Positions 11,761 to 50,042 of a stretch of DNA of 64,000 bases are shown one piece after another. The notes under the pieces are model-generated. The model was not told the origin of the DNA and did not search any database. It saw nothing but the letters and a program-made list of their open reading frames with translations. Each line of letters begins with the position of its first letter. The first letter of the stretch is position 1. Source of the DNA: Symbiodinium sp. CCMP2592 (taxonomy: Eukaryota > Sar > Dinophyceae > Suessiales > Symbiodiniaceae); assembly GCA_905221615.1 (NCBI GenBank), contig CAJNDT010002835.1, positions 623,426 to 687,425 of the forward strand. The letters run 5' to 3'. Position numbers and translations under genes: made by a program.

Positions 11761-11784
11761 ATCTGGGTAGCAGAAGCAGTAGTA

Positions 11785-11824
<40 letters not shown>

Positions 11825-11881
11825 CAGCATCAGTAGTAGCGGTAGTGCTAGTGGTAGGGGTAGTGGTAGTGGTAGTAGTAA

Positions 11882-11930
<49 letters not shown>

Positions 11931-12033
11931 TGTTGTTGTAGTAGCACTAGCAGTAGCAGTAGCAGTAGCAGTAGCAGTAGCAGTAGCAGTAGCAGTAGCA
12001 GTAGTAGTAGTAGTAGTAGCAGCAGCAGCAGCC

Positions 12034-12071
<38 letters not shown>

Positions 12072-12180
12072 CAGCAGCAGTAGCAGCAGCAGTAGCAGCA
12101 GCAGTAGCAGTAGCAGTAGCAGTAGCATCAGTAGTAGCATCAGTAGTAGCAGTAGCAGTAGCAGTAGCAGTAGCAGTAGC

Positions 12181-12217
<37 letters not shown>
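11761..12217. repeat. Long (TAG)n/(AGC)n trinucleotide tract
   Basis: About 0.46 kb of TAG units interspersed with blocks of AGTAGC, AGC and GGTAGT. Frames through it translate to long Ser, Leu, Val or Thr runs on both strands, which are repeat artefacts and not genes. The same TAG/CTA family occurs at 14522-14675, 26855-27192 and 49078-50045. Confidence 0.95.
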
Positions 12218-12218
<1 letters not shown>

Positions 12219-14521: not shown

Positions 14522-14675
14522 GTATATGCGCCTTACCGACTTAGTAGTAGCTAGCAGCCAGTAGCAGATGCAGCAGCAGCAACAGCAAAAGCAGTAGCCG
14601 GACTGGTACTACCAGGACTACTAGTACGGGTACTAGTAATAGTAGTAGGAGTGGTAGTGGTAGTATCATCACACT
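14522..14675. repeat. TAG/AGC-rich tract at the 3' end of the LINE-like element
   Basis: Imperfect TAGTAG, CAGCAG and ACTAGTAC steps lie immediately beyond the 3' untranslated segment of the minus-strand element. Read on the element's strand this is CTA/TAC repeat, the same repeat and orientation as the tract at its 5' side. It may be target microsatellite DNA or the element's own simple-repeat tail. Confidence 0.8.
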
Positions 14676-14790
14676 CGCTGCGGACGGTAAAGTCGCAATG
14701 CGCTGATTGGAGCAGGAATCACCTGGCGCACTGTGGCGCACGATCACACTTGGATCGTCTCGGAACTGACTACGTTGTGCCCCGAAGGGC
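14676..14790 (-). other. 3' untranslated segment of the LINE-like element
   Basis: About 115 bases separate the stop codon of the protease frame from the CTA-rich tract. The segment has no poly(A) run and no open frame of note. A GC-rich inverted pair (GCCCTTCGGGGC) lies right after the stop and could form a small hairpin recognised by the reverse transcriptase, but this is inference. Confidence 0.5.
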
Positions 14791-15600
14791 CTATGTGGAA
14801 GTTGCAGCACTCCTCAGTCTGTATACGAGTATGTAGCTGGAGGTAGAAAGGGCATCCAGGCGAATGGATTGTGCAGCTCTGTTGTCATCGGTGTAATGCC
14901 AGAGGGATGTAACATCAGAGCGAGGCTTGAGTGCAGCACGGTAGTGCCCCGTGACCGTAGTAGGTCCGATGTGCTGGACAATCGCTTGAAGCTGATAAGT
15001 TCTCCATATGACTTCAGTGGAGGTGGGGATCCATTGAGGAAAGAGGACTTCCTGATCTGCTTCGATGCGATGGTCACTTTTGGTAGCAATGCCCCGCTCA
15101 TTGCAGAATCTGTTCAGCTGTACAGCCACAGCTTCAGTACCTGAGATCAAGGCGTGGCGACGTTTCTGCGAGTACCAACGATTGATGCAGGACTGGGCTG
15201 AGGTAGCAACGGCAGTAGAGGCATCTTGAATACCAGAAAGGATGAGTGGACAAACCCCGCCTTCATCCTGGAGCACTCTGCGGTCATCATAAGATTGCCA
15301 GAGGCCTTGGAAGCAGGGTGCATTTAACACCTGGTGAAGGTGTAGTAGGAAGTCCGCGGCATCGTGCTGTCTGGCAGGATTAGTCCAGCGCCGGAGTGCC
15401 TGTCGCCATGGTAGAAGGGACCACAGCGTCAGTTGTTGCTGCTTGCGCGCCTGCGCAATGAAGCTCCTTATCGGTTCCCGGTCCAGTACCTGAAGGGATG
15501 AGGTTGACAGGGACACAATCCAAAGATAGGTCAGGAGGCAAGCGTGGGAGTAGCAGTAGTTGGATGGGTTGTGAAGCCGCAGTATCGGAAGTAATGCTGA
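14791..15600 (-). CDS. Ubiquitin-specific protease (peptidase C19) domain of the LINE-like element
   Basis: About 265 residues in the frame one base back from pol. The Cys box reads NPSNYCYSHACLLTYLW, with the candidate nucleophile codon at 15555-15553. Further on come QLNRF, the equivalent of the LxRF strand. The His box GHYRA follows the usual Y-L-A-V-HxG segment, and then WHYTDD with the third catalytic Asp, and a YILVY end strand. This order and spacing fit USP/UBP deubiquitinases, which cleave ubiquitin from proteins. The zinc-binding Cys pairs of the fingers subdomain are absent and the domain is shorter than most host USPs. It has no ATG of its own at the Cys box. It is joined to pol either by a -1 shift near 15575-15640 or by an unseen intron. 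A role in shielding the element's RNP from degradation is conjecture. Confidence 0.75.
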   Translation of the reverse strand, partial: SALLPILRLHNPSNYCYSHACLLTYLWIVSLSTSSLQVLDREPIRSFIAQARKQQQLTLWSLLPWRQALRRWTNPARQHDAADFLLHLHQVLNAPCFQGLWQSYDDRRVLQDEGGVCPLILSGIQDASTAVATSAQSCINRWYSQKRRHALISGTEAVAVQLNRFCNERGIATKSDHRIEADQEVLFPQWIPTSTEVIWRTYQLQAIVQHIGPTTVTGHYRAALKPRSDVTSLWHYTDDNRAAQSIRLDALSTSSYILVYRLRSAATST

Positions 15601-18600
15601 GGTCTCGGCTGCTGACGTGGCATGGGAATGTTCATGGATTGCAAGAGGGTCTGGAGCTGCTGCGCCAGGGCTGAGCGTTGGAGGCGATCCGGGCGAAGGG
15701 TGCAGCCCACCATGAGGAGAGAGGAGTTGTGCGAGAGGAGCTGGAGTAGCTCCCAAAATCGGGCTGTCTGCTCTCCTCGCCATCCCACTTCCAGAAGCCA
15801 GGTGACTGTGCTTCCTTCCATCTTCTCTTCCAGTTGCCTCGTGGCGTGAAAGCGATTGAGCAGCTGTGGCTGCACACTCAATGTCGCCAGCTCCTGAGCC
15901 ACCTCCACCACCTTCTGGGCCAGTAGCGGCTCTCTGTCCGGGATGGCTTGCATGGCACCTTCCTTGTTGTTCCACTTGCGGTAGCCAAATCCCGTATTCG
16001 GGTTGTACAGCTCCATCTGAACAGCCTGTTCCCGTGCGTCCGCCTGGTCTATCACCTTCTGCGCACGCTGCGCCAACTCCATCATCAGCTTCTGCCATAG
16101 GATGATGCGCATCGGCTGCGTGATGGCGTCCGGGTTGTTCCATCGCAGGTCGTGCCAACCTTGGGCTGTGGCGAACAGCTTGGGGAGGATGGTGCTTTCC
16201 GTCTGGGTCGTGAGGAAGAGAATCCAGGTGGTGGATTGCTGAAGCACCGAGAGGGCGTCCTCGTGTCTCATGAGGAGCCTGGCCATGGTGTGACACATGA
16301 GGTGGAGATCTGGGCCGGAAGTAGGCCCGTATCCCTGTCCTTGGCGCTGCCAGGGAGGCTGAGGGTGGTACCCGGAGGGGCGACCTCCTGGCCGTCTTGT
16401 TTGTCCGCCTTGGTGGGGAGACCGTCCTGCTGGTGCCGACTGGTTCGGATGGCCTCGGCCCGCCGCGCCTTTCCCTTTGCCCGGAGGAGGGGCTCCTTTG
16501 CTGTTGTCGCGGTGCCACTTGGAGGGTCTTCCCGCTGTCTCTTCCGCCGGTGGGGGATGTGAGGTGTCCATTGGTTCGCTCTGGGCGGGGAGGTCTGCTG
16601 CCTTCGGCGCCGGTGACGGAGGGTTCGGGATCCCTGTGCCTCGATACTCTTGAGCTCCATGGTCGCCTCCTCCAGGTCCTCCGGGTTGACTTGATGGGTG
16701 TTGAACATCGAGGGCAGGGTCATGTCGGACCTGGGTCGTGTGAGCGGTACTGTGCATTTCGAAGGTGGCTTGCAACAGGTGGACCAGGAACAAAACTGCA
16801 CACTCAGTGGCGTGCTTGATGGGTGCTCCCGTAAGAGACAGGCTGCAGTAGCGACAGGTTTTCCCCAGGGCCAAAAGCCTGCGGTGGGTCTGCATGCGGC
16901 GGACTGCTTCTTCACAGCATGCAATCATGGGAGGGTGCTTGGCTTTAATGTGTGCGCGGAGGCCGCGGGCTTGGGTCAGCCATTGGTGGCAGTACGGGCA
17001 ATGTTGCACTGCCTGAGGAAACGCCTTTTTCATCCAGGAGGCAAGCTGTTCCCAGGTGCCTAGGAAAAAGGGGTGGCACTCGGATCTATGGTAGAGCGGT
17101 GTCGGGTTTAGGTTGAGTTTTGGGGGTAAAGTGTGAAAGCCGTCTGGTACAAGGGTGCGGCAGGATTTCGTGGATATATGCACGCGCAGGTTGTGCCAGG
17201 AGTCACACTGCCGAAGGCAGTGTCGGCATTGCGGTAGACCTTCGCGGCCATGTTGCCAAACAAACAGGGCATGTTCATCCGCCGCAAATGCGGGCTTGGG
17301 GACCAGGGTCGTGGCCGCGTCGGGATCCATGGTCACCGCAGCAGCTGAAGAGGAGGATGGAGGTGGACCTGCGGCAAGGGTAGGTGTGGTGGCAGGGGCT
17401 GATTCCGGCGCAGGAGTTGATTGTCGGACCTGTGTCTGGTGGGACTTGCGCATGTGCAGACGCACAGCTTGCAGCGTGCTGTAGCCGACCCCGCAGATCG
17501 GACAGCATAGCGGTCTATAGCTGAGGGCGCTGCTGAGTGGTTTAAGGTGGGCCCGGGTCGATCCTGTGTCCTCCGAGGCAGGGATTCCGGTGGGGTCTGA
17601 GTCGATGACAGCAGATGTGGTCGAGTAGTCCTGCAACTGGTCGAACCAGGTCTCCTGCGCATCGGTCGGGAATTCTGGAGACTGTTGAAGGTGGCGTTGG
17701 ATGCGCTGATCCAAGGTGTCTCCCGGCGACTCAAGGTGGCTGCGACGAAGGAGTTCGCACGAGGTGACCTTGGTAACATGGCCCGGGAGTTTGTGTATGA
17801 GTCGGAGTTGGGCGTGGACAAGTTGGGAGAGGAGTGTGCGGGAATGTGGGGTTACACCTGTGGCCTCAAGGGAGTAGAGGGCGACGGGGTAGACACAAGT
17901 CTTCCAAACTCTGATTTTGCTTTCCAGGGTTAGGGCCCGGCAGCGGAGGACTTTGGCCAGTCGCCAGTATGCCTGCCATCCGAGGTGCAGACGATGCTGC
18001 AGATTGAGGGTCTCGTGGCTCTGGTATGCTATTCGAGCTCCCAGGTACGTGTGATCCTCCACTATTTTGATGGGCATGATACTGCGACCAACTCGGAGCT
18101 TAATGGCAGTTTCGCCTGTGTCCAGCTTCGTGAGCCTGGGGCGTAGAGTGCTCCGGGCCGCGGTTCCTTGTAGGTTTAGCAAGAACACCGTTTTTGTAGG
18201 CGAGACGCGGAGGCCTGAGTCGTGGAGGAGCTGGATGAGCAGCCCTGCGGCACGCAGGCTGGAGCGAAATTGCTCCTGGGTGCGTATGGTCCAGGAGGCC
18301 CAAATGTCGTCCGCATAAAGAGTGGGTTCTCCCAGCAGCTCCTTCTTCTGGCTGGTGATCTCCTTGAACCTCAGATAGAGCGTGGTGGTGGCCATGGACC
18401 ATAAGAGGGGTGAAAGTCCGCATCCTTGGCGAATCCCTTGCGAGAGCGCGACCTCTTCGTGGTGTCCCGCCAGTTCAAAATTGAGCACGGCTTGGTCATG
18501 TATATGCAGTGCGAGCGCCACTTCCTCAGTGGTTAGCCCAGCGGCCAGCATTGATTCCACAAGCTGGTGTCTGGGCAACGAGTCAAAGGCTTTATCGACA

Positions 18601-21560
18601 TCAAGGCTGAGTGAGAGGCCGCCAGCAATCTGGCTTGGTGTCGCCCCTGAATGGCGCAAGTGGCGTTTGGGGACAGCCGCGGCTGCCAGGGTACGGGCCT
18701 CATGGAGGTGGCTGCAAACTCGGCTGATAGCGTCGGTGGTGCTGCGGCTACGTACATAGGCGAACTGAGGTGCCTGGCGGATGTAGGTCTCTGCTCTGTC
18801 CCTGATGCGGTCTGCCAACATCATCGCAAGTATCTTGCTGCCTGGAGAAAGAAGGCAAATGGGGCGTAATTGTTTCGGAAGGCGTGCCATGGAAACCTTC
18901 GGGATGAGGCATACATGCACGCGGTGCCAGTCCTCCGGGAGGTGGTAGGAAGGGGGCAGAAGGCAGTGGTGTAATCCCGCGGCAATGTCCTGTCCTATGG
19001 CATCTGAGGCAGCCTGCCAAAGTCTCGCCGGCACATAGTCCGGGGGAAGTGCCTTCCGGACTGGGAGTCGAGCAAGGGCACTAGTTACTTCTGCATCGGT
19101 GAAGCTGATGTTCGTGGTGGGTTGGGGTGGAGCGGGGCAGGTTTTGGCAGTTTGATAGAGACTCTCGAAGTGCTGACGGATAGCTTTGAGCTCGTCTCTC
19201 GGAGCCATTAGCATTCCGTCGCTATCGCGAAGTTGAATGCGAGAATGTCTGGTCTTGGGGGCCAGCAATCTGGTGGCTTTGTAGAGAGCGCCGGGCTCAG
19301 TGCTCTGTTCAGCTTCGCTGAGAATGTGGTCTAGGCGCTCTTGTTTGCGAAGTTTGCCGCGTTTGTGAAGGATGTTCTGGGTCTGCCGAATCTGCTGCGC
19401 AAGTTGGAGTGCCTGGGCCTTCTGCGCAAAGGTGTCCGTAGGTTGTGATTGCTTGAGGCGCTTTAGTCTCCAGAGCTCCTTGACAGTGATAGCAGCATCG
19501 GGCTCGTTGGTGTCCTGGCGGGTCTGCCCTGTCGGGTGGAGTCCAGCCGATGCGATAAGGTGTTCCCAGGTTTTGCGGAGGAGGTCGTTGATGTGTCTGC
19601 ATGGGTCCTCCCCCAGGGGGGTGGGGTGGAGGCGCAGTTGGAAGGCCATGGAGTGCGCCAGTTTGGGACCAAGTTCGGGGTCCTGGGCCATGGCCGCGCG
19701 CACAGCTGCGGCGGTACAGATCTTGGATGGTGGCTTAGGTGATTTAGGTATCAGTTTGGGGCCAGGCCATGGCATCGTGGTATGCATGGGGAGGTGGCGG
19801 TTGCCTTGTAGGGGAACAAACGGTACCTTGCGCAGAGCTCCTGCGCGGCGGGTTTGACGGTCAGATTGGCCCTCACGGCAGAGGATATAGTCAATGCGGG
19901 TACGAGTGGCATGCTGTCCAGTGCCCGCAACGTATGTAGCCGCATTGGCCTGGCGGCCGAAGGTGGTAACGGCCAGGAGCTGATGGTCCTTGAGGAGGCT
20001 CTGGAGTCTACCGTAGTCCTTCTGTGGTGGCGTTGATTTATCCACTCTGTCCGCTGACCGCGCAAGTCGGGGGGCGTCCGGCGGTGGCACACATTGGGTG
20101 TTGAAATCTCCCAGTACCACAAGCTGATGACGCTGGGCAATACGGCCGATTAGGGTTGAAAGAGAGCTCCAGACCTTTTCTCTGCACTCCAAAAGCTTTT
20201 CCTGTGTGGGGGTGGTTGTGGAGTTGGTGGACCAGCAGTGCTGGTAAAGGCTGATGAAGGAGATAGGTGGCTCAGTAGCGAGTTTAGTGTACAAGATCCT
20301 GCCTGGCAAAACATGGTCCGTGCGCACCTGATGTGTGCTGGCCAAATCCTGGTGGATCAGGTGGAGGATGCCTGCGCTGCGGGACTTGCCATCCAGGGAA
20401 CTGTGCAGGTGCCAGTAGCCTTGGGCCTGCCATTCGCTGGTGAAGGTCCAATGGGTCTCCTGGATGGACAGAGCGTGGACCGGTCGTCCTTGGAGGGCCT
20501 CCAGGTGTAGCCAGACATAGATTTCATCAAGATTGGCAGTACTGAGGCCTCCGGCGTTCCAAGAGAGGATTCTGAATCTGTCCAGGGTAGTGGCAGTCTC
20601 AGGCGGGGTGTTGGCAGAGGCCTGGGCACAGGATTGAGATGGCACGGGGGTGTCGGAGTGATAGAGTCGGCCTTTGTATCGTGCGGTTCCTGTGGTGGCA
20701 AGTCGTCGCAGGAACCTGGCATAGGAGCGTTTCTTGACAGATGAGGTAAGTGCTGCAGGTGGCGATGCAGTGTCGCCTGAAGTAGATGGCGCGCGAGGCT
20801 TCGCCGCACTGTGCGGCCTTCGAAGTGCAGTGATAGCGACTTCAGGGGAGTTCGCGACTGTCTCCCCAACCCTCGCACCTGCCGAACTCAGAAGCTGCGA
20901 TCCTAGTATGATGGCCTTGAGATAGGCTGGTGTGTGTCCTTTAGTTAGCTGCTGAGTTCGGGCCCCGGATTTGGGACCGGGGCGGCTCGCTATGGTAGAG
21001 AAGAGGGTGTGTGTGTTGGGTCCACTCCATGTATTGTAGGGCTCACTGTCGCCCAGGAGGGATATGTCAGACTCAGACTGGCACTTTTTGAGCCTGAGGG
21101 CATGCACGGGCTGGGGGGAACCAGAACACAGTGCATGATTGCAGGCTGTAAGCAGTTTTCGCATGATCGTCAGTGGTGGTCCGTCCAGCCTCACCCGTCC
21201 TTTGGGGAGGCAGATATAATTCCTCCAGGGAGGTCTAGTCCAGGCTGTGCAGGTCCAAGGCCAAGGCCAGGGCTGCACTCGGCGTTTGGATGGTCGAGGT
21301 GGAGGCGGAGGCTGGTACCAGGCGTTCGGGGTGAGCAGGCTCGACAGCGTCTGTGCGGTCTGGCGCAAATTGATGGTAGTGGAGCCTGCACAGTCCGCAT
21401 GCCGGTGACGGCACAAACTCCGCTGGGTCCCCTGCCACGACGTGTTCGGCAGTAGCGGCATCTCGGAGCTCTGCTCGCCAGGCACTGTGGCATAGGGAGA
21501 TCTGGGGGCGACGCTGCATTTGGCGTGTGGGCCTGGCTTGGGCGAGGACGTCCCTGACAC
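15531..21560 (-). CDS. LINE-like pol: EEP endonuclease, reverse transcriptase, zinc fingers
   Basis: The frame has 2009 codons without a stop. Residues about 328-600 form an endonuclease/exonuclease/phosphatase fold: SWNAGG (N335), QETHW (E368), LGDFNT (D495, N497) and RIDYIL (D557). The terminal SDH motif reads N-R-H (587-589). Residues about 876-1140 are the reverse transcriptase: HVCLIPK, LRPICLL, SLDVDKAFD (D987), SQGIRQGCGLSPLL and LYADD (1081-1085). Four zinc fingers follow: C1353/C1356/H1369/H1374, C1445/C1448/H1461/C1467, C1521/C1524/H1537/H1542 and C1569/C1572/H1583/C1587. After a Pro/Gly-rich linker (about 1610-1740) comes a helical, Trp-containing region up to about 1985. The first 130 residues overlap another open frame that stops at 21235, so Met133 (codon at 21164) is an equally good start. 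The product would nick target DNA and copy the element RNA in place. Confidence 0.9.
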   Translation of the reverse strand: MSGTSSPKPGPHAKCSVAPRSPYATVPGEQSSEMPLLPNTSWQGTQRSLCRHRHADCAGSTTINLRQTAQTLSSLLTPNAWYQPPPPPRPSKRRVQPWPWPWTCTAWTRPPWRNYICLPKGRVRLDGPPLTIMRKLLTACNHALCSGSPQPVHALRLKKCQSESDISLLGDSEPYNTWSGPNTHTLFSTIASRPGPKSGARTQQLTKGHTPAYLKAIILGSQLLSSAGARVGETVANSPEVAITALRRPHSAAKPRAPSTSGDTASPPAALTSSVKKRSYARFLRRLATTGTARYKGRLYHSDTPVPSQSCAQASANTPPETATTLDRFRILSWNAGGLSTANLDEIYVWLHLEALQGRPVHALSIQETHWTFTSEWQAQGYWHLHSSLDGKSRSAGILHLIHQDLASTHQVRTDHVLPGRILYTKLATEPPISFISLYQHCWSTNSTTTPTQEKLLECREKVWSSLSTLIGRIAQRHQLVVLGDFNTQCVPPPDAPRLARSADRVDKSTPPQKDYGRLQSLLKDHQLLAVTTFGRQANAATYVAGTGQHATRTRIDYILCREGQSDRQTRRAGALRKVPFVPLQGNRHLPMHTTMPWPGPKLIPKSPKPPSKICTAAAVRAAMAQDPELGPKLAHSMAFQLRLHPTPLGEDPCRHINDLLRKTWEHLIASAGLHPTGQTRQDTNEPDAAITVKELWRLKRLKQSQPTDTFAQKAQALQLAQQIRQTQNILHKRGKLRKQERLDHILSEAEQSTEPGALYKATRLLAPKTRHSRIQLRDSDGMLMAPRDELKAIRQHFESLYQTAKTCPAPPQPTTNISFTDAEVTSALARLPVRKALPPDYVPARLWQAASDAIGQDIAAGLHHCLLPPSYHLPEDWHRVHVCLIPKVSMARLPKQLRPICLLSPGSKILAMMLADRIRDRAETYIRQAPQFAYVRSRSTTDAISRVCSHLHEARTLAAAAVPKRHLRHSGATPSQIAGGLSLSLDVDKAFDSLPRHQLVESMLAAGLTTEEVALALHIHDQAVLNFELAGHHEEVALSQGIRQGCGLSPLLWSMATTTLYLRFKEITSQKKELLGEPTLYADDIWASWTIRTQEQFRSSLRAAGLLIQLLHDSGLRVSPTKTVFLLNLQGTAARSTLRPRLTKLDTGETAIKLRVGRSIMPIKIVEDHTYLGARIAYQSHETLNLQHRLHLGWQAYWRLAKVLRCRALTLESKIRVWKTCVYPVALYSLEATGVTPHSRTLLSQLVHAQLRLIHKLPGHVTKVTSCELLRRSHLESPGDTLDQRIQRHLQQSPEFPTDAQETWFDQLQDYSTTSAVIDSDPTGIPASEDTGSTRAHLKPLSSALSYRPLCCPICGVGYSTLQAVRLHMRKSHQTQVRQSTPAPESAPATTPTLAAGPPPSSSSAAAVTMDPDAATTLVPKPAFAADEHALFVWQHGREGLPQCRHCLRQCDSWHNLRVHISTKSCRTLVPDGFHTLPPKLNLNPTPLYHRSECHPFFLGTWEQLASWMKKAFPQAVQHCPYCHQWLTQARGLRAHIKAKHPPMIACCEEAVRRMQTHRRLLALGKTCRYCSLSLTGAPIKHATECAVLFLVHLLQATFEMHSTAHTTQVRHDPALDVQHPSSQPGGPGGGDHGAQEYRGTGIPNPPSPAPKAADLPAQSEPMDTSHPPPAEETAGRPSKWHRDNSKGAPPPGKGKGAAGRGHPNQSAPAGRSPHQGGQTRRPGGRPSGYHPQPPWQRQGQGYGPTSGPDLHLMCHTMARLLMRHEDALSVLQQSTTWILFLTTQTESTILPKLFATAQGWHDLRWNNPDAITQPMRIILWQKLMMELAQRAQKVIDQADAREQAVQMELYNPNTGFGYRKWNNKEGAMQAIPDREPLLAQKVVEVAQELATLSVQPQLLNRFHATRQLEEKMEGSTVTWLLEVGWRGEQTARFWELLQLLSHNSSLLMVGCTLRPDRLQRSALAQQLQTLLQSMNIPMPRQQPRPQHYFRYCGFTTHPTTATPTLAS

Positions 21561-24500
21561 ACCGCGCAGGTCTCATCGGGCCGCACGGCTTGGTAGCAGT
21601 GTGGCCACCCTTCCATCCAATGATCTCTGCACACAGGGATAGAAATGGCCGAGGCGTTTCTGAGTGAAGTGGCTCTGGCACGGCGAAAGCCTGATAGTCT
21701 GCGTGCTTCTCTTCGCGCGGACCTGTCTCCAGGAGGGCCAGTGGGCCGTTGCATGCTATATGACCAAGGTACAACGGCGCAGCTGAGGCCGGCGCTGTTG
21801 CGAAAGCGGGTGGTGCGCTGCCACTGAGATCTGACATCCATACAGACTCTAGAGATGGGGGCTGCAGCGTTTGGTCAGGCAGTGAGTGTGGCTTCCAGGT
21901 CCCCAGCCACAGCTGCCACCCGTGAGATGGACCTTGGGGTTGAGAAGTTCGGCGGGGCACGCAGGTCCGGGCTTTAGTGTGGCAGCAGAGTGAGTGCGTA
22001 AGGCAGCTAGGCAGGGTAGAGCCGCAGAGGGTCGTACTCACTTTTTGTAGCGGAAGCAGCCTGATCTGGGAGGAGTCACTCAGGGCTCTCCAGGCTCTCA
22101 AGGCTCGCAATGCTCTCAGTCTCCGTGGCAAGCGTCCAGGCCGACTCACACGAGGGCGATCTCTCGACTTCAACTTCCACGGTGACCCGCTGCTCCTCAG
22201 ATTCCGGGTGGTCAATATCCGGGATCCTGGCTTCGAACGGAACACGGGGAGGACGGTACCTGGTTTTGGCCTTGGAGTAGTCGGAGTCCAGCTGCAGGAC
22301 GGCAGCTGGTTCGTCCCAGTCAGGCTCCAGATGCCAGATGCTGGGTGCCGCCGCTGGGCCAGATGCCAGGGGCGGAGGTGCTCCCTTCGCCGATTTCTTG
22401 GGCATCTTTTTGGGCTTCGGCGGCATTCTCTTGGGGACCTCCTTCGGCGCCACATTGGAGCTGCTGCCCTGGCTGCCCTTGCTGGTTGCTGGGAGGCCTG
22501 GTCCTTCTGGATCGTGGTGTCGTGAGGAGCCTGGACCGGCAGCTTCTGAAGACGCTCGCGGGCGCTTCTTTGGAAGAGGGCGAAGCCTGCCTTCCGGCGT
22601 TGTCGCCAGTTTGGGCCGTGCCCGTGGCTGTGGTTCGGAGGCCGGCTGAGAGTCCTTCTGCAAGTCGTCGGCCTGGGGCTCATCAGCTTCCGGATCTCCT
22701 GCCCCCGCCCGCATCGACCGCCAGATGGCCATGGAGTACCTAGTGATAGGTGGAGGCACTCGTCTCCAGCGGGCTCTTTGCAGAGCGCGTCGCGTAGCCA
22801 GTTGTCGGGTCCTTCTGAGTGGGCATTGTCCTTGTCGTCCGCGAGGACGGAGTAGCCACCGAGGGTTGATCGGAACCATTGTGCACACGGCGGGTTGCTC
22901 ACGCTACACGAGGCAATGGCAGGGCGCCTGGGACTAATGCAAGCCTGGGCCTGTCTAGGAGTGCCTAGCATGGGGCTATGAGTCAAGCTTTGCACCGGGG
23001 TGGAGGGGAATTGGTCCTCCCTTGGAACCTGTGCTGCTCCCTGGACGTGTGCCATGCTGTTCTGCTGTGAGCAGCTCAGAGAACAGGCATCTTCAAGTGA
23101 GGCGCTGCTGGCAACAATGGCAGTCAGCTGCAGCAACCGGTGTAGCATGCAGTAACTTGGGATCCGAGGCCGCAGCAAGTCTGGTGCCGGAGGAGGGCAC
23201 GTATTTCCTTCGGCTGCGTCGTGCTTGGAGAAGGTACCTGCACTGGGACAAGTAAGGCAGTGTCGCCGCATGGCACGGTTGCAGCAACGAGTGTGGTGGA
23301 GGCAGGCACACCGGGCATGCCGCTGGAGAGCCACCTTCGGTGGCACAGTGCCAGCTAGGACACAAGTGTCGCGTGCAGCTCCGGCTGGGCCCCTGTCGTG
23401 GCAGGAGACGAGGGCGGTGCTAACCTCAGTACGGCATGCTTTGGTTGTGGTCGGCCCGGATGGCTCAGAGTGAGAAGGCTGAGCACTGCAACTATTGCTG
23501 CTAGCAGGGTGCCTGTGAACGGCAGTGCAGTAATTTTTCCGCCGGCTTGAACAGTGGATGACGTCCGGGTGAACCGGAAGAAGAGCACGCCAAGGAGGCA
23601 GTACCTGAGGCCAGTAGCCATGTCGAAGATGCTGTGGAAGAGGTTCTGCTGCACTGCTCCTTCTAGGGACCACCAGATCCAGATCCAGGTCCATTGGGCC
23701 CACTGGGACGGATATGGATCGTAATTGTCCATCCTTGAGTGTGGACCGTGGTAGTGGTGGAAGTGGGGGCAGCTGCTCGGATCGGTCGAGACGGAGGTCT
23801 GGGTCCCGGGTTAGAGGGGCCAGGGCTGACAGGTCCGCATCCTTTCGCAGGTGGTCTGGCTCCAAGCTCGTCGCTGGTGTAGGCAGTGGCGGTCCGCTCG
23901 GGGGACTGTTAGTCGTAAGTGGGCCTGGCGGATCCGTTGGCACAGCTGCTGGTAGGGGAGCCATGGCTCCTGCAGGGGCAGCCCATGGCAGCGGTGGGGC
24001 CGGCGAGGCCTCGGCGGTTGTCGGCACCGGAGGTGGCGGACCTCGTGGCGCGGCACTGGAGTCTGCCGGCGCATCTGGTGAGTCAGGGCTGCTGGGGGAC
24101 GTCGGCTCACTAGTGCTCTCCGCCGCAGCGGGCTTAGCCTTTGCTGAGGAAGCTGCAGAGCCCCTGCCTCTGCCACGGCCTCGCTGATTCCTCGGTGCCA
24201 TGAGGCCTTCCGCCTGTTGCCGGGCTGGCCTACAGAGTCTAGGCGGTCTCGAGCCACAGCAGCTACCGTGATTCCTCGGGTGACTCTGAGCACAAGGATG
24301 TAGTAGTGCACTGTGCTGCTGGGGCGGCTGCAGAGGAGCCAGTCTGGGCTGGCAAGGTGAAGGCTGCAGTCGCTGCAGTCGCTGAGGGCTCCCTGCGGGA
24401 TCGTGGGTAGCGGGAGTTGGCTCTAAGCATGGATGTCTCGGCAGGTGATGCCCGCACGCCAGGCTAGTTTTTCTCTGCATGCCTGGTCCTAGCTGAGCTC

Positions 24501-24795
24501 GGGTCCTTACGAGAGAAGCCTCACACTGTAGTGGATGAGGGCGGGCTCTGGTCACAGTCCTGCACCAAGGATCACTGCAGTGGTAGTGGAAACAGAGTGG
24601 CTGCAGCAGGACAGAGCTGAGGTGTCGACATGCTTTGGCACGGCTCTTGGCTGAGCTGGAGGAGCGAGGTCGCGAGGGCCGGCTGCCCGTGGTGGCGGAC
24701 TGGAGGAGTTTGGTGATGAGCTCTCCCGCTTGGAGGGGGCTTCCGGTTACAGGGCAGGTGGTGCCCGTTCTGGACCTCGGTGGATCGGTTGACAC
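21235..24795 (-). CDS. Long upstream open frame of the LINE-like element (ORF1-type region, composite)
   Basis: This is 1186 codons without a stop, upstream of pol and overlapping its first 108 codons. The most protein-like parts are the stretch from the Met at 24201 (MAPRNQ, then RGRGRGRG and a long Pro/Ala/Ser-rich tail), a segment near 22800 (NWLRDALCKEP) and the last 200 residues from the Met at 21837 (MSDLSG to the stop). That last segment has scattered Cys/His residues such as CGLCRLHYH. In between, other frames read better (22732-22076 and possibly 23732-23355), so the true products are probably several shorter proteins or a frame-shifted or spliced one. LINE ORF1 proteins bind element RNA. 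No CCHC, RRM or esterase signature is visible here, so the function is inferred only from position. Confidence 0.4.
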   Translation of the reverse strand: MSTDPPRSRTGTTCPVTGSPLQAGELITKLLQSATTGSRPSRPRSSSSAKSRAKACRHLSSVLLQPLCFHYHCSDPWCRTVTRARPHPLQCEASLVRTRAQLGPGMQRKTSLACGHHLPRHPCLEPTPATHDPAGSPQRLQRLQPSPCQPRLAPLQPPQQHSALLHPCAQSHPRNHGSCCGSRPPRLCRPARQQAEGLMAPRNQRGRGRGRGSAASSAKAKPAAAESTSEPTSPSSPDSPDAPADSSAAPRGPPPPVPTTAEASPAPPLPWAAPAGAMAPLPAAVPTDPPGPLTTNSPPSGPPLPTPATSLEPDHLRKDADLSALAPLTRDPDLRLDRSEQLPPLPPLPRSTLKDGQLRSISVPVGPMDLDLDLVVPRRSSAAEPLPQHLRHGYWPQVLPPWRALLPVHPDVIHCSSRRKNYCTAVHRHPASSNSCSAQPSHSEPSGPTTTKACRTEVSTALVSCHDRGPAGAARDTCVLAGTVPPKVALQRHARCACLHHTRCCNRAMRRHCLTCPSAGTFSKHDAAEGNTCPPPAPDLLRPRIPSYCMLHRLLQLTAIVASSASLEDACSLSCSQQNSMAHVQGAAQVPREDQFPSTPVQSLTHSPMLGTPRQAQACISPRRPAIASCSVSNPPCAQWFRSTLGGYSVLADDKDNAHSEGPDNWLRDALCKEPAGDECLHLSLGTPWPSGGRCGRGQEIRKLMSPRPTTCRRTLSRPPNHSHGHGPNWRQRRKAGFALFQRSARERLQKLPVQAPHDTTIQKDQASQQPARAARAAAPMWRRRRSPRECRRSPKRCPRNRRREHLRPWHLAQRRHPASGIWSLTGTNQLPSCSWTPTTPRPKPGTVLPVFRSKPGSRILTTRNLRSSGSPWKLKSRDRPRVSRPGRLPRRLRALRALRAWRALSDSSQIRLLPLQKVSTTLCGSTLPSCLTHSLCCHTKARTCVPRRTSQPQGPSHGWQLWLGTWKPHSLPDQTLQPPSLESVWMSDLSGSAPPAFATAPASAAPLYLGHIACNGPLALLETGPREEKHADYQAFAVPEPLHSETPRPFLSLCAEIIGWKGGHTATKPCGPMRPARCVRDVLAQARPTRQMQRRPQISLCHSAWRAELRDAATAEHVVAGDPAEFVPSPACGLCRLHYHQFAPDRTDAVEPAHPERLVPASASTSTIQTPSAALALALDLHSLD
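22076..22888 (-). CDS. Lys/Pro-rich acidic-tailed ORF within the LINE-like element
   Basis: An open frame of 270 codons. A more natural start is the internal Met at 22732 (MAIWRSM), giving 218 residues. The first part is acidic (DPEADEPQADD). The middle is strongly basic with KKRPR and PKPKKMPKK motifs that could bind nucleic acid or act as a nuclear signal. The end is acidic and Ser/Glu-rich (ETESIASLESLESPE). It overlaps the long frame described at 21235-24795, whose translation here becomes Arg/Ser/Pro-rich in the way a shadow frame does. The handover from the long frame to this one at about 22735 is a -1 step, the same direction as the pol-to-protease handover. No known family is recognised. 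A gag-like or RNA-binding role is inference. Confidence 0.4.
   Translation of the reverse strand: MCTMVPINPRWLLRPRGRQGQCPLRRTRQLATRRALQRARWRRVPPPITRYSMAIWRSMRAGAGDPEADEPQADDLQKDSQPASEPQPRARPKLATTPEGRLRPLPKKRPRASSEAAGPGSSRHHDPEGPGLPATSKGSQGSSSNVAPKEVPKRMPPKPKKMPKKSAKGAPPPLASGPAAAPSIWHLEPDWDEPAAVLQLDSDYSKAKTRYRPPRVPFEARIPDIDHPESEEQRVTVEVEVERSPSCESAWTLATETESIASLESLESPE
23355..23732 (-). CDS. Small hydrophobic ORF within the LINE-like element
   Basis: An open frame of 125 codons starting at its own Met (MDNYDPYPSQ), in the same phase as pol. It has a Trp-rich stretch at residues 11-22 and two hydrophobic segments, roughly residues 41-53 and 69-90 (TGTLLAAIVAVLSLLTLS), which could be membrane helices. 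It overlaps the long frame of the region, and only one of the two can be the main product. Membrane-type proteins are unusual in LINEs, so this may be a chance frame. The regular amino-acid composition and clean start argue weakly for coding. Confidence 0.25.
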   Translation of the reverse strand: MDNYDPYPSQWAQWTWIWIWWSLEGAVQQNLFHSIFDMATGLRYCLLGVLFFRFTRTSSTVQAGGKITALPFTGTLLAAIVAVLSLLTLSHPGRPQPKHAVLRLAPPSSPATTGAQPELHATLVS

Positions 24796-24970
24796 TGCCT
24801 GGGTGTGGCTGGCTCTGAGTCAGAGTAGTAGGAGTAGCTGTCGTCCTCCAGTGGTCGGCCTTGGTCTGCCCTGTGTTGTCTATAGAGGGCTGGGGGCATG
24901 ACAGGGGGACCTGGATGCACTGCTCTTGGTCTCGTCGAGGGCCGGTCAACTTGTCGAGAGGGGGAGGCAC
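24572..24970 (-). CDS. Short ORF in the leader region of the LINE-like element
   Basis: An open frame of 132 codons starting MPPPLDKLTG, rich in Gln, Thr and Pro, with no domain recognised. It lies between the frame ending at 25036 and the long frame starting at 24795, which it overlaps. It could be an untranslated leader that happens to be open. Listed because it continues a chain of open frames in one direction. Confidence 0.18.
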   Translation of the reverse strand: MPPPLDKLTGPRRDQEQCIQVPLSCPQPSIDNTGQTKADHWRTTATPTTLTQSQPHPGSVNRSTEVQNGHHLPCNRKPPPSGRAHHQTPPVRHHGQPALATSLLQLSQEPCQSMSTPQLCPAAATLFPLPLQ

Positions 24971-25035
24971 TTTCCCGAGGGGAATCCTTCTGTTGGACAG
25001 TGGTGCCGTTGGGAGCTGTATTCCGGCGTGGCTTC

Positions 25036-26059
25036 TTAGGCCGCGACGGTGTGCCCTGGGGCCGCGCTGGTTTGGAAGGAGGTGGCCTGTTCGCAGGGCT
25101 TCGAGACCGGGGTCTGCGCCTGGGCTTCGTGCTGGGCGGTCGTCGGGAACGCGAGGAGGAGCGCCGGCTGCGAGTCAGCGGACCTCAGGCGAATTGGGGC
25201 CGTCTCTGGCCTTGGTTCCAGGTCTCTGCTGTCTGGCTGCTGTTCTTGCATAAGCTGCTCATGTAAGCGCTGCATCCAACCTGGAGAGCGATGATAAAAC
25301 GCCTCGGAGTAGATGGTGCAGGGCGGAGGTGCAGCTTCTCGTGGGTGTCGAACAGCTTCACACTCCTGAGTGTACAGACGGTTCAGCCTGCCAGGTCGGG
25401 ACTGATCACGTCGCCGCTTGCTGTCTGACCGCGGCATCCCGTCAGGGGCCCTGAATATCAGGTCTATAGGGGACCAGGGCTGGTTTCCTGTTTGAGAGGT
25501 ACCCAGCTGCGTCAGAGGCCGGTCACAACACGACAGAGGAGCAACGCTGGCTGCAGGCAGTGGCGGTGGCCTGCTCGATGAGAGGGCCTGTGTGGTCGAC
25601 GGAGGTAGGCAGGCCTGAAGGTCTGTCAGGAACGGCGCCAGGCAGTTGCGGCAGGACAGAGCCGACATGTGTCGGAAGACTCTAGCACATGGGTCAGGGC
25701 AGTGACAGTGAGGCGCCGGCTCGGCGAGAGCTTGCGCCTGAGCATCGCGTGGGGCGGTCACATCGGCGTCCATGGAAGCAGGTGCCGAGAGACAGGCCAC
25801 CGCAGGCGAGGACCCCTCTAGCCTGGGTGCACGGGCAGAGGTGAGGGAATGACTGCAGACATAGTGCTCGGTGTGAGTCACGGGCAGTGTAGTCCTCATA
25901 GTAGGGTCACCTGGGCCAGTACAGGGGCAGGACAAGTGGGGATGGGTGTTAGCAGGGCCAAGAGCACAGGTCGTGAGCGCAAGCCAGTATCGATCTTTTG
26001 CTGTGGCCAGTATCAAGTCGGTGCTGCACTGCTGGGCAACTTGGCTGAAACGGCTTCCA
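25036..26059 (-). CDS. Second open frame of the LINE-like element, function unknown
   Basis: This is the lower part of a longer open frame (open upstream to 26823) that becomes protein-like just after the first small ORF stops at 26060. It has Cys/His-rich stretches (PHCHCPDPCARV, SALSCRNCL), then SPIDLIFRAPDGMP, and from the internal Met at 25437 a 133-residue segment with GWMQRLHEQLMQEQQ that looks helical. The Cys/His spacing does not fit CCHC or C2H2 patterns. The start is uncertain: Met 25437 gives a tidy small protein, but the sequence upstream also reads well. It may be an ORF1-type accessory product. Confidence 0.3.
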
Positions 26060-26515
26060 TCAAGACTTGTCTGTAGAAGGGAGAGAGCCTGGTGCCTTTG
26101 GTGTGGTCTCCGTACCGACAGGAGAGCGGGATCTCGATCGAGGGCGCTTTGGATCCTTAGAGCTGGAGGGCTTGGCCAGGGAAGCAAGAGTCCGCTCCGC
26201 TTCTTCAGCAGCTGCCATGAGATCCGCCGTGTCAATGGAGTCCGGAGAGCCCGGCTGGGCCTGAGGCTTCTGACAGCTCTGGGGCTCGTCAGTGGTCGGC
26301 AGGGGACCAGGGCGCAATGCAGTCGCTGATCCGATGCGGTCCCAGTTATTGGTGTTCCATACCTGATGGTGCAGCCCTGCCCTGTAGCGTTCTCGGACGA
26401 TCGTGTTGTCCAGGGTCTGATGCAAGCTGGCCAGCGTCTCGGCAAGGTTGACCTGCTCTGTGGGTGGAGGCGATCCTGATGGTGCCGCAGGTTGTTCTGA
26501 GGTTGGCCGCGACAT
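26060..26515 (-). CDS. First ORF of the LINE-like element (ORF1-type candidate)
   Basis: The frame encodes 151 residues from MSRPTSEQ to a TAA/TAG-type stop. It has a Pro/Ala-rich start, then a likely helix (NLAETLASLHQTLDNTIVRE) and the WNTNNWDRIG segment. Near the end there is an Ala/Glu helix (DLMAAAEEAERTLASLAK) and a basic RS-like patch (KRPRSRSRSP) that could bind RNA. It is the most upstream well-formed frame of the element, about 340 bp inside its 5' microsatellite edge, which is where LINE ORF1 would start. No family match can be named. Confidence 0.4.
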   Translation of the reverse strand: MSRPTSEQPAAPSGSPPPTEQVNLAETLASLHQTLDNTIVRERYRAGLHHQVWNTNNWDRIGSATALRPGPLPTTDEPQSCQKPQAQPGSPDSIDTADLMAAAEEAERTLASLAKPSSSKDPKRPRSRSRSPVGTETTPKAPGSLPSTDKS

Positions 26516-26854
26516 GGTTCGGCAGGGCCTCTGGGCACAGCAGGGGCCGGTATGCTGACACTAGGCAGTAGCTTGAGCCTGCAAGTATCGGCAGGAGCGC
26601 TGAGAAGGGACGGCAGGTCCTGGCTGTTGCTCCATATGCAGGGTAGCAGTACTAGCTGAGGCTCGCACCTCTCAGGCCAGAGCAAGTCGGCCACGGGCGG
26701 AGATTTGGTCCCAGCGGCTTGCGGATGGGGTGGAAAAGGATTGGGAGAGAGAAGGCAGGCCAGGAGGAGAAGGTGTGTAAGTACCATCCTGCAGCCTACT
26801 TCTACACTCACACACACACACACACGGACAGTCTTCGTTCGAGCCCAGATGCTT
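26516..26854 (-). other. Probable 5' untranslated region of the LINE-like element
   Basis: About 340 bp lie between the 5' TAG/CTA tract and the first ORF. It contains a short (TG)n run on the element strand (26809-26825). An open frame passes through it but is Leu/Pro-rich and shows no domain. Internal promoters of LINEs usually sit here, but none can be read by eye. Confidence 0.4.
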
Positions 26855-27121
26855 GGTAGTGGTAGTAGTAGTAGTAGTAGTAGTAGCAGCAGTAGCAGCA
26901 GCAGCAGTAGTAGTTGTAGTACTAGGTAGTAGTAAGTAGTAGTAAGTAGCAGCAGCAGCAGCAGTAGCAGCAGCAGCAGGAGGAGTAGTAGTAGTAGTAG
27001 TAGTGGTGGTAGTAGTGGTAGTAGTAGTCGTCGTCGTCGTCATAGTAGTAGTCGTCGTCGAAGTACTAGAAGTCGTAGTGGCAGTAGTAGTAGTAGTAGT
27101 AGTAGCAGTAGCAGTAGCAGT

Positions 27122-27153
<32 letters not shown>

Positions 27154-27192
27154 TAGTAGTAGTTGTTGTTGTAGTAGTAGTAGTAGTACCGC
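26855..27192. repeat. (TAG)n-rich tract at the 5' side of the LINE-like element
   Basis: Blocks of TAG, AGC, TCG and GTAG units span about 340 bp. On the element strand it reads CTA/TAC, the same orientation as the tract at the 3' end. Ser/Val/Thr-rich translations through it are artefacts. Confidence 0.92.
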
Positions 27193-37735: not shown

Positions 37736-39998
<2,263 letters not shown>

Positions 39999-49194: not shown

Positions 49195-49240
<46 letters not shown>

Positions 49241-49560
49241 TGTTGTTGTTGTAGTAGTAGTAGTAGCAGCAGCAGCAGTTGTGGTAGTGGTTGTCGTGGT
49301 GGTGGTGGTCATGGCAAATGTAGTGGTAGTGGCAGTAGTAGTCGTAGTAGTAGTAGTAGTAGCAGTAGTAGCAGCAGCAGTAGTAGTAGTAGTAGTGGCA
49401 GCAGTAGTAGTAACTGGCGTTGTTGTTGTAGCAGTAGAAGTAGCAGCAGCAGTAGTCGAGTAGCGCTGTTTTATGTAGTTTCGTCGCCGTAGTAGTAGTG
49501 GAAGTGGCAGTGGCAGTAGTAGTCGTCGTCGTGGCAGTGGTGGTGGTAGTGGCAGCATGT
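49010..49560. repeat. (TAG)n/(AGC)n tract, first arm
   Basis: About 0.5 kb of TAG, AGC, GGTAGT and TTGTTG units with TAG on the plus strand. It forms the first arm of an orientation-switching block with 49575-49995. Confidence 0.93.
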
Positions 49561-49574
49561 GAGGCAGTAGCAGT

Positions 49575-49872
49575 GTACTACGACGGCGACTACTACCACC
49601 ACCACGTCTACCACGACCACGACCACCGCCGCTACTGCTACTGCTACTGCTACTGCTACTACTACATCTACTCCTACTGTTACTGCCAATGCTACTATTC
49701 CTACTGCCAATGCTACTGGTCCTGCCACTGCCATCGCCACTGGCACTGCTACTGCTATTGGCACTGCTGCTATTACTAGGCTGCTGCTGCTGCTGCGACT
49801 ACTACTACTCCTACTCCTACTCCTACTCCTACTCCTACTACTACTACTGCTACTGCTACTACTACGACTACG

Positions 49873-49933
<61 letters not shown>

Positions 49934-49995
49934 ATATTACTACTACTACTGTTGCTGCTGCTACGACGACGGCTGCTACTACCGTTGCAACCACT
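49575..49995. repeat. (CTA)n/(TAC)n tract, inverted arm
   Basis: The same repeat family as the preceding arm but on the opposite strand (CTACTA, CTGCTA, CCTACT units). A short TAG arm resumes at about 49996-50045. Together they make an inverted repeat with a spacer of only about 15 bases. Confidence 0.93.
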
Positions 49996-50000
49996 AGTAA

Positions 50001-50042
<42 letters not shown>

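Follow-up and report, generated by a model that had tools for sequence, protein, structure and literature searches.

The window, a 64,000-nucleotide stretch of DNA from Symbiodinium sp. CCMP2592, carries on its reverse strand an APE-type LINE (non-LTR retrotransposon) whose coding part ends in a ubiquitin-specific protease (USP) domain (Table 1). No LTR-like direct repeats were found between positions 10 and 30 kb of the window. The APE-like endonuclease lies upstream of the reverse transcriptase (RT), and profile matches placed both on the strand of the USP, as an earlier note on this DNA had proposed. The RT has its YADD motif at 18317; in PDB its sequence matched four L1 ORF2p sequences (best E = 1.8e-9) and also 8c8j, an RNA-directed DNA polymerase (8.3e-10). 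Four zinc fingers had been claimed as well; four motifs were recognized, but Pfam supported only some of them, with zf-C2H2_4 matching two stretches at 1.2e-4, below its cut-off. The LINE had been placed at 14791..21560, which holds these domains, but the element extends beyond on both sides. An ORF with CxxC motifs upstream of the main frame, over whose region dN/dS was 0.25, is a candidate ORF1 judging from its sequence. Another ORF upstream, at 22903-22076 (-), is likewise +2 to the frame of RT and USP. When five window ORFs between 14.8 and 27.3 kb were scanned against Pfam, the shorter upstream ORFs being left out, there was no RNase H match at E ≤ 1 and no DNA methylase match, and the sole protease match was the C-terminal C19 domain, with no N-terminal Ulp1-like (C48) domain.

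Table 1. Features of the USP-bearing LINE in the window (positions from the first letter of the window)
Feature	Position	Strand	Evidence or remark
Whole LINE element	14665..26854	-	12,190 bp; junctions with (TAC)n-type flanks; ends common to other copies
5' target-site duplication	26855..26866	-	ACTACCACTACC; borders (TAC)n array 26856-27188
Upstream ORF with CxxC motifs	21191..21874	-	+2 frame relative to main frame; codon-position bias
Open frame of window copy, 2013 aa	15531..21572	-	APE, RT and zinc fingers, fused to gene B via 7-nt deletion
APE-type endonuclease domain, residues 336-568	19869..20567	-	Pfam Exo_endo_phos PF03372, E = 1.1e-6
Reverse transcriptase domain, residues 890-1138	18159..18905	-	Pfam RVT_1 PF00078, 2.3e-16
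Zinc-finger region, four C2H2/C2HC-like motifs	16800..17507 (approximate)	-	motifs by eye
Overlapping gene B, ATG 16723	15531..16723	-	in intact copies, +1 to RT/USP frame; broken here by 7-nt deletion
Main-frame linker overlapping B	15607..16723	-	stop-free in intact copies; without amino-acid constraint
7-nt deletion	16633..16633	-	breaks RT-USP frame and frame B in window copy
USP (peptidase C19) domain and stop codon	14791..15606	-	Pfam UCH PF00443
3' target-site duplication	14653..14664	-	ACTACCACTACC; read by eye

The 5' end of the element, AAGCATCTGGGCTCGAACGA, meets the repeat flank at 26854, where the letters read AAGCATCTGG; the 3' end at 14665 is GTGTGATGAT (GATGAT). Target-site duplications were examined by eye in three copies, namely the window copy, C5129 (GCTGCTTCAATG) and C5274 (CAACTACTGCT). 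The exact limits of the window duplications are ambiguous because they lie inside a simple repeat; those of C5129 and C5274 are less ambiguous because they are less repetitive. The 3' end was identical in all 21 copies (the window and 20 others fetched), and ACT/GCT-type repeats followed directly 3' in 20 of the 21 (by eye), the exception being L023. Repeats of the (TAC)n type also preceded the 5' end in the window and in all four other copies fetched for that end. The family is found in (TAC)n-type microsatellites. Among five distant loci, (TAC)n-type repeats lay downstream of the USP in L039, L040 and L041. None was present within the fetched 0.75-0.8 kb of 3' flank in L038 and L042, so this target may not be common to all USP-LINEs. 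Long trinucleotide arrays of the GTA/TAG/CTA type at 11767-12218 and 49195-50042 resemble the array at 26856-27188 and could host relatives of the LINE. The window also contains a (GT)n array of about 214 units (99% matching) at 39559-39987.

The C-terminal domain had been read as a peptidase C19 with its catalytic boxes in order up to a stop codon, and profile and structure searches bore this out. Pfam UCH matched at 5.9e-10, above its curated cut-off, in the frame 16719..14791 (-), and the boxes followed one another correctly: the Cys box at 15570-15532, HDAADF at 15366-15349, GHYRA at 14949-14935 and WHYTDD at 14901-14884. An AlphaFold2 model built from 17 sequences (pLDDT 83.4, pTM 0.85) gave 295 Foldseek matches at E ≤ 0.001; the best 50 of these were all USP chains with probability 1.00, some sitting inside larger complexes, and had query-normalised TM-scores of 0.49-0.72, mostly above 0.6. 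As modeled, the C-terminal domain has the USP fold. The closest PDB sequence was that of USP30 (9f19, a USP30 chimera; 3.8e-11). In an alignment of 32 USP domains (the window plus 31 proteins), the Cys was kept in 31/31 domains reaching that site (P0044 is cut there), and the His and Asp likewise in 31/31 (P0002 is cut there). Within the own genome, all three residues were retained in 21/21 family copies (the window copy and 20 that were fetched) and in 5/5 distant loci; motif patterns missed two of these residues, Cys in L032 and Asp in L031, both of which an alignment showed to be present. The USP is probably an active deubiquitinase, which would work as part of the RT polyprotein or after release from it.

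The own genome (1.098 Gb, 5383 contigs) was searched with the USP and with the RT. Scoring of the best 136 of 2157 candidate USP places gave 16 near-full copies at 97-100% identity, 32 near-full copies at 77-83%, 20 fragments of family copies and 68 distant USPs at 30-42%, all of these counts being lower bounds because only the best candidates were scored. For the RT, the best 150 of 2587 candidates were scored, and 108 of these 150 rows were compared with all 136 USP rows; rows with at least 74% identity counted as family RT places, and 52 of these 54 entered the comparison, without the second fragments of C137 and C791. A USP lay downstream of the RT on the same strand within 13 kb at 49 of the 52 family places and within 4 kb at 43 of the 52; no USP was present within 13 kb at C4855, C5324 and C1424. 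Diverged RT places had a USP downstream in 38/56 cases; at the other 18 none was found among the scored USPs, and theirs may simply be unscored. In NG86 comparisons of L011 with L023 and L024, which represent one subfamily pair picked for long open frames, dN/dS was 0.09 for the APE-RT-fingers part and 0.113-0.116 for the USP, indicating that RT and USP are under the same purifying selection. The USP is also inside the 12.2-kb unit enclosed by target-site duplications. It belongs to the mobile unit. Neither outcome that the earlier note had named as refuting its reading, absence of the USP from other copies or a C19 profile search without a match, came about, and its suggestion that the protease is under selection was supported.

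The window copy itself is a degenerate member of this LINE family. Its RT and USP do not share a frame, because 7 nt are deleted at 16633; of seven other copies compared, six (L002-L007) carry these 7 nt, and L008 was too divergent around this position to judge. Against L011, to which it is 98.2% identical over 9428 nt, the window copy also lacks 65 nt in the upstream ORF 21191..21874 and 1 nt upstream. With codon usage learned from the ORF2 core (15735 to about 20570), the ORF2 frame was preferred as far as about 15.6 kb and the USP frame at lower positions. In intact copies the USP is in frame with the RT, from APE to USP: one frame spans everything fetched in L011, L023 and L024 (at least 3123, 3128 and 3131 aa), a single open frame of 1394-1430 aa was present in 5/5 distant loci, and RVT_1 and UCH fell within one ORF in 3/3 distant loci scanned. 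The longest open-frame totals in the own-genome USP search, up to about 4100 aa, probably take in the 5' region as well as the (TAC)n array, which is stop-free in every frame. Amino-acid constraint on the main frame was clear from near window position 20939. A programmed -1 frameshift into the USP was first considered because seven protein models (P0001, P0002, P0006, P0048-P0051) appear to change frame upstream of the USP; it was rejected, since the window copy has the 7-nt deletion and intact copies have one RT-USP frame.

Between the zinc fingers and the USP there is a second conserved gene, B. Across this interval, substitutions between subfamilies fell at third codon positions when read in the +1 frame, but not when read in the RT/USP frame (29, 5 and 0 at main-frame positions 1, 2 and 3, for example). 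The overlap had a dN/dS of 0.096 in frame B versus 1.77 in the main frame (NG86; L011 vs L023/L024), where 1.77 is the off-frame level and NG86 values in overlapping frames are only indicative. B is about 340-420 aa long. Of the 20 family loci that were fetched, 14 had it at full length, with 466 or 459 aa between stops, and in six it was shortened or fused. All five distant loci had a B homologue of 343-391 aa in the same place and frame (24-34% identity in tblastn). Identity of B was 18-37% between four lineages; among subfamilies within two of the lineages it was 82% (L011/L024) and 59-80% (L030/L031/L033). An AUG precedes the conserved N-terminal part in 7/7 subfamilies, and a Gly-Lys tract is conserved. 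Searches with B gave no convincing match in Pfam (best E 0.1) or PDB (best E 0.29); its AlphaFold model was poor (pLDDT 51.6). Judged by its sequence, B probably acts as a partner that binds nucleic acids. Purifying selection acts on each of RT, B and USP. Gene B, the frame break peculiar to the window copy and the microsatellite target were absent from the earlier note.

The main frame opposite B forms a linker of about 340-390 residues. When the B protein was kept and synonymous codons were resampled with B's own codon usage, a mean of 7-9 main-frame stops was expected across B and none was observed, in each of nine copies from seven subfamilies and four lineages (P ≤ 0.0005 each); third-frame stops were near expectation. 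As a control, the comparable frame of the RT-finger region in eight copies had 26-40 stops vs 29-46 expected, with a slight deficit in four of the eight loci (P 0.03-0.08). The nine copies had been picked for open frames, which biases them towards zero counts. A tally of unselected rows softens this bias without removing it: among near-full family rows 36 of 48, and among distant rows 51 of 68, had a frame that stays open for 650 aa or more and ends in the USP, sufficient to span the linker. The tally took in 116 of the 136 USP rows, with the 20 fragments left out, and two of the 68 distant rows had an internal stop. Since the linker is stop-free without amino-acid constraint, translation of the main frame seems to give APE-RT-fingers-linker-USP, B being overprinted on the linker; a segment that stays open while its protein is unconstrained seems the signature of a spacer that is overprinted and translated as part of a polyprotein. 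A separately initiated USP was rejected: the whole linker is stop-free, not only its end, and Met positions vary among subfamilies.

The same arrangement recurs in distant proteins. P0007, which is 23% identical to the window ORF2, shares the RT-finger-USP order, and a search with it listed 40 further proteins. In 29 of these 41 proteins (P0007-P0047) the USP domain covered more than 60% of the profile, and in P0043 it was present in part. RT, fingers and USP were ordered as in the window LINE wherever the members of this group and P0052/P0053 were complete; USP identity to the window was 21-26% for aligned members of the P0007 group and 36-37% for P0052/P0053. Named sources were Cladocopium goreaui and Symbiodinium sp. 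CCMP2592, and the database names were automatic or empty. When P0007 was compared with the own genome, 31 places were scored, all within query residues 7-633 (RT and some fingers) and with RTs 26-31% identical to P0007. None of the 31 reached the USP, so related LINEs with other C-termini, lacking a recognizable USP of that type, may coexist here. In viral contigs, scanned twice, no relative was found. The public models P0001, P0048, P0049, P0050, P0052 and P0053 disagree in the frame changes by which they traverse B and the linker; these changes are perhaps invented introns.

Taken as a whole, the data are probably best explained by a LINE that targets (TAC)n repeats, has one APE-RT-fingers-linker-USP ORF with B overprinted on the linker, and uses a deubiquitinase to protect its own RNP. 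RT, B and USP could instead form one product through two frame changes, +1 into B and -1 into the USP, by frameshifting or splicing. Such a product would fit the end-to-end tiling of the constrained blocks (RT-fingers in frame A, B in +1, USP in frame A), and two gene models of Symbiodinium sp. CCMP2592 (P0052 and P0053) join B directly to the USP while P0048 and P0049 join B to the main (A) frame upstream of the USP. However, it does not need the main frame to be stop-free across B, as was observed; B has its own AUG in all the subfamilies; and no obvious slippery site was visible by eye in the window. We regard it as unlikely.

The USP might also act mainly as a polyprotein protease in self-processing, or on SUMO or another ubiquitin-like modifier, and not as a deubiquitinase. 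USPs for other modifiers exist, as the part of the literature consulted describes for USPL1 on SUMO and a structure entry title indicates for USP18 with ISG15, and the unconstrained linker could be a cleavage zone. However, the sequence and fold are nearest to USP30, USP12 and USP1 among the best matches listed, and linkers share no motif between lineages by eye; we consider this reading quite improbable. That the USP is a host fragment lying beside, or carried along by, a dead LINE would agree with its being out of frame in the window copy, but is hardly credible given the copy number, the common ends and target-site duplications, the in-frame linkage and co-occurrence of RT and USP, the purifying selection and the identical domain order in distant proteins, and adjacent host debris is ruled out.

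Under the self-protecting, B-overprinted LINE that we favor, the ORF2 product would nick (TAC)n-type DNA and prime reverse transcription there. The C-terminal USP would remove ubiquitin from the element RNP or from nearby host proteins or factors at the target, and the large ORF2 product would thereby escape proteasomal removal long enough for target-primed reverse transcription. From the sequence evidence, it is plausible that the USP protects element proteins from ubiquitin-dependent removal, as the earlier note had suggested. The spacer between RT and USP would have no protein-level role, its open frame serving only to let ribosomes get as far as the USP. RNA binding is a possible role of B, which could be initiated from a spliced-leader mRNA starting inside the element, by internal initiation or by a frameshift. 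That these elements form an old, diverse dinoflagellate LINE lineage with an active C-terminal deubiquitinase and a stop-free spacer overprinted by a separate, conserved protein B is slightly better than an even prospect.

Ulp1-like cysteine proteases are of the kind that acts on ubiquitin-like modifiers. Gains of enzymes by LINEs are known, including Ulp1-like proteases and RNase H in the passages available from PMC4640811 and methyltransferases in those from PMC5890265. A near parallel, SymbioLINE-Dnmt, comprises dinoflagellate LINEs with a captured DNA methyltransferase; like the window LINE these are Symbiodinium elements carrying a host-type enzyme under purifying selection, whereas their methyltransferase lies in ORF1 upstream of the RT, as the passages of PMC5890265 describe, and the USP here is C-terminal. 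The terms 'ubiquitin', 'protease' and 'peptidase' do not occur in the main text of PMC5890265. NeSL and nematode Utopia elements are, in the passages of PMC4640811, also non-LTR elements with a cysteine protease; theirs is N-terminal and Ulp1-like and is combined with an RLE endonuclease, in contrast to the C-terminal USP (C19) and APE endonuclease of the window LINE. Dualen/RandI elements resemble it in having APE and RT; Dualen encodes both APE and RLE and is reported to have RNase H in the same passages (PMC4640811), whereas the window ORFs gave no RNase H match. The earlier note had cited a cysteine protease in Dualen/RandI, for which the literature passages gave no confirmation. No description of a USP in a LINE appeared in the titles and abstract openings of the open-licence PMC matches listed, subscription journals, preprint servers and Repbase lying outside this search. 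In the parts of the dinoflagellate genome papers PMC8045281 and PMC6123633 that form their main text, 'ubiquitin' had no occurrence. Nothing close to overlapping frames in LINEs was found among the literature matches listed.

Gene models of these loci look untrustworthy across B and the linker, and counts of USP genes in such genomes may be inflated by LINEs. The overprinted B is a natural experiment in dual coding, for which the sequence-level tests were positive. If the favored explanation is true, a LINE would combine an overprinted gene of deep conservation with a counter-defence of mobile elements against ubiquitin. An active USP would point to restriction of retrotransposons by the ubiquitin system in dinoflagellates, with the elements fighting back.
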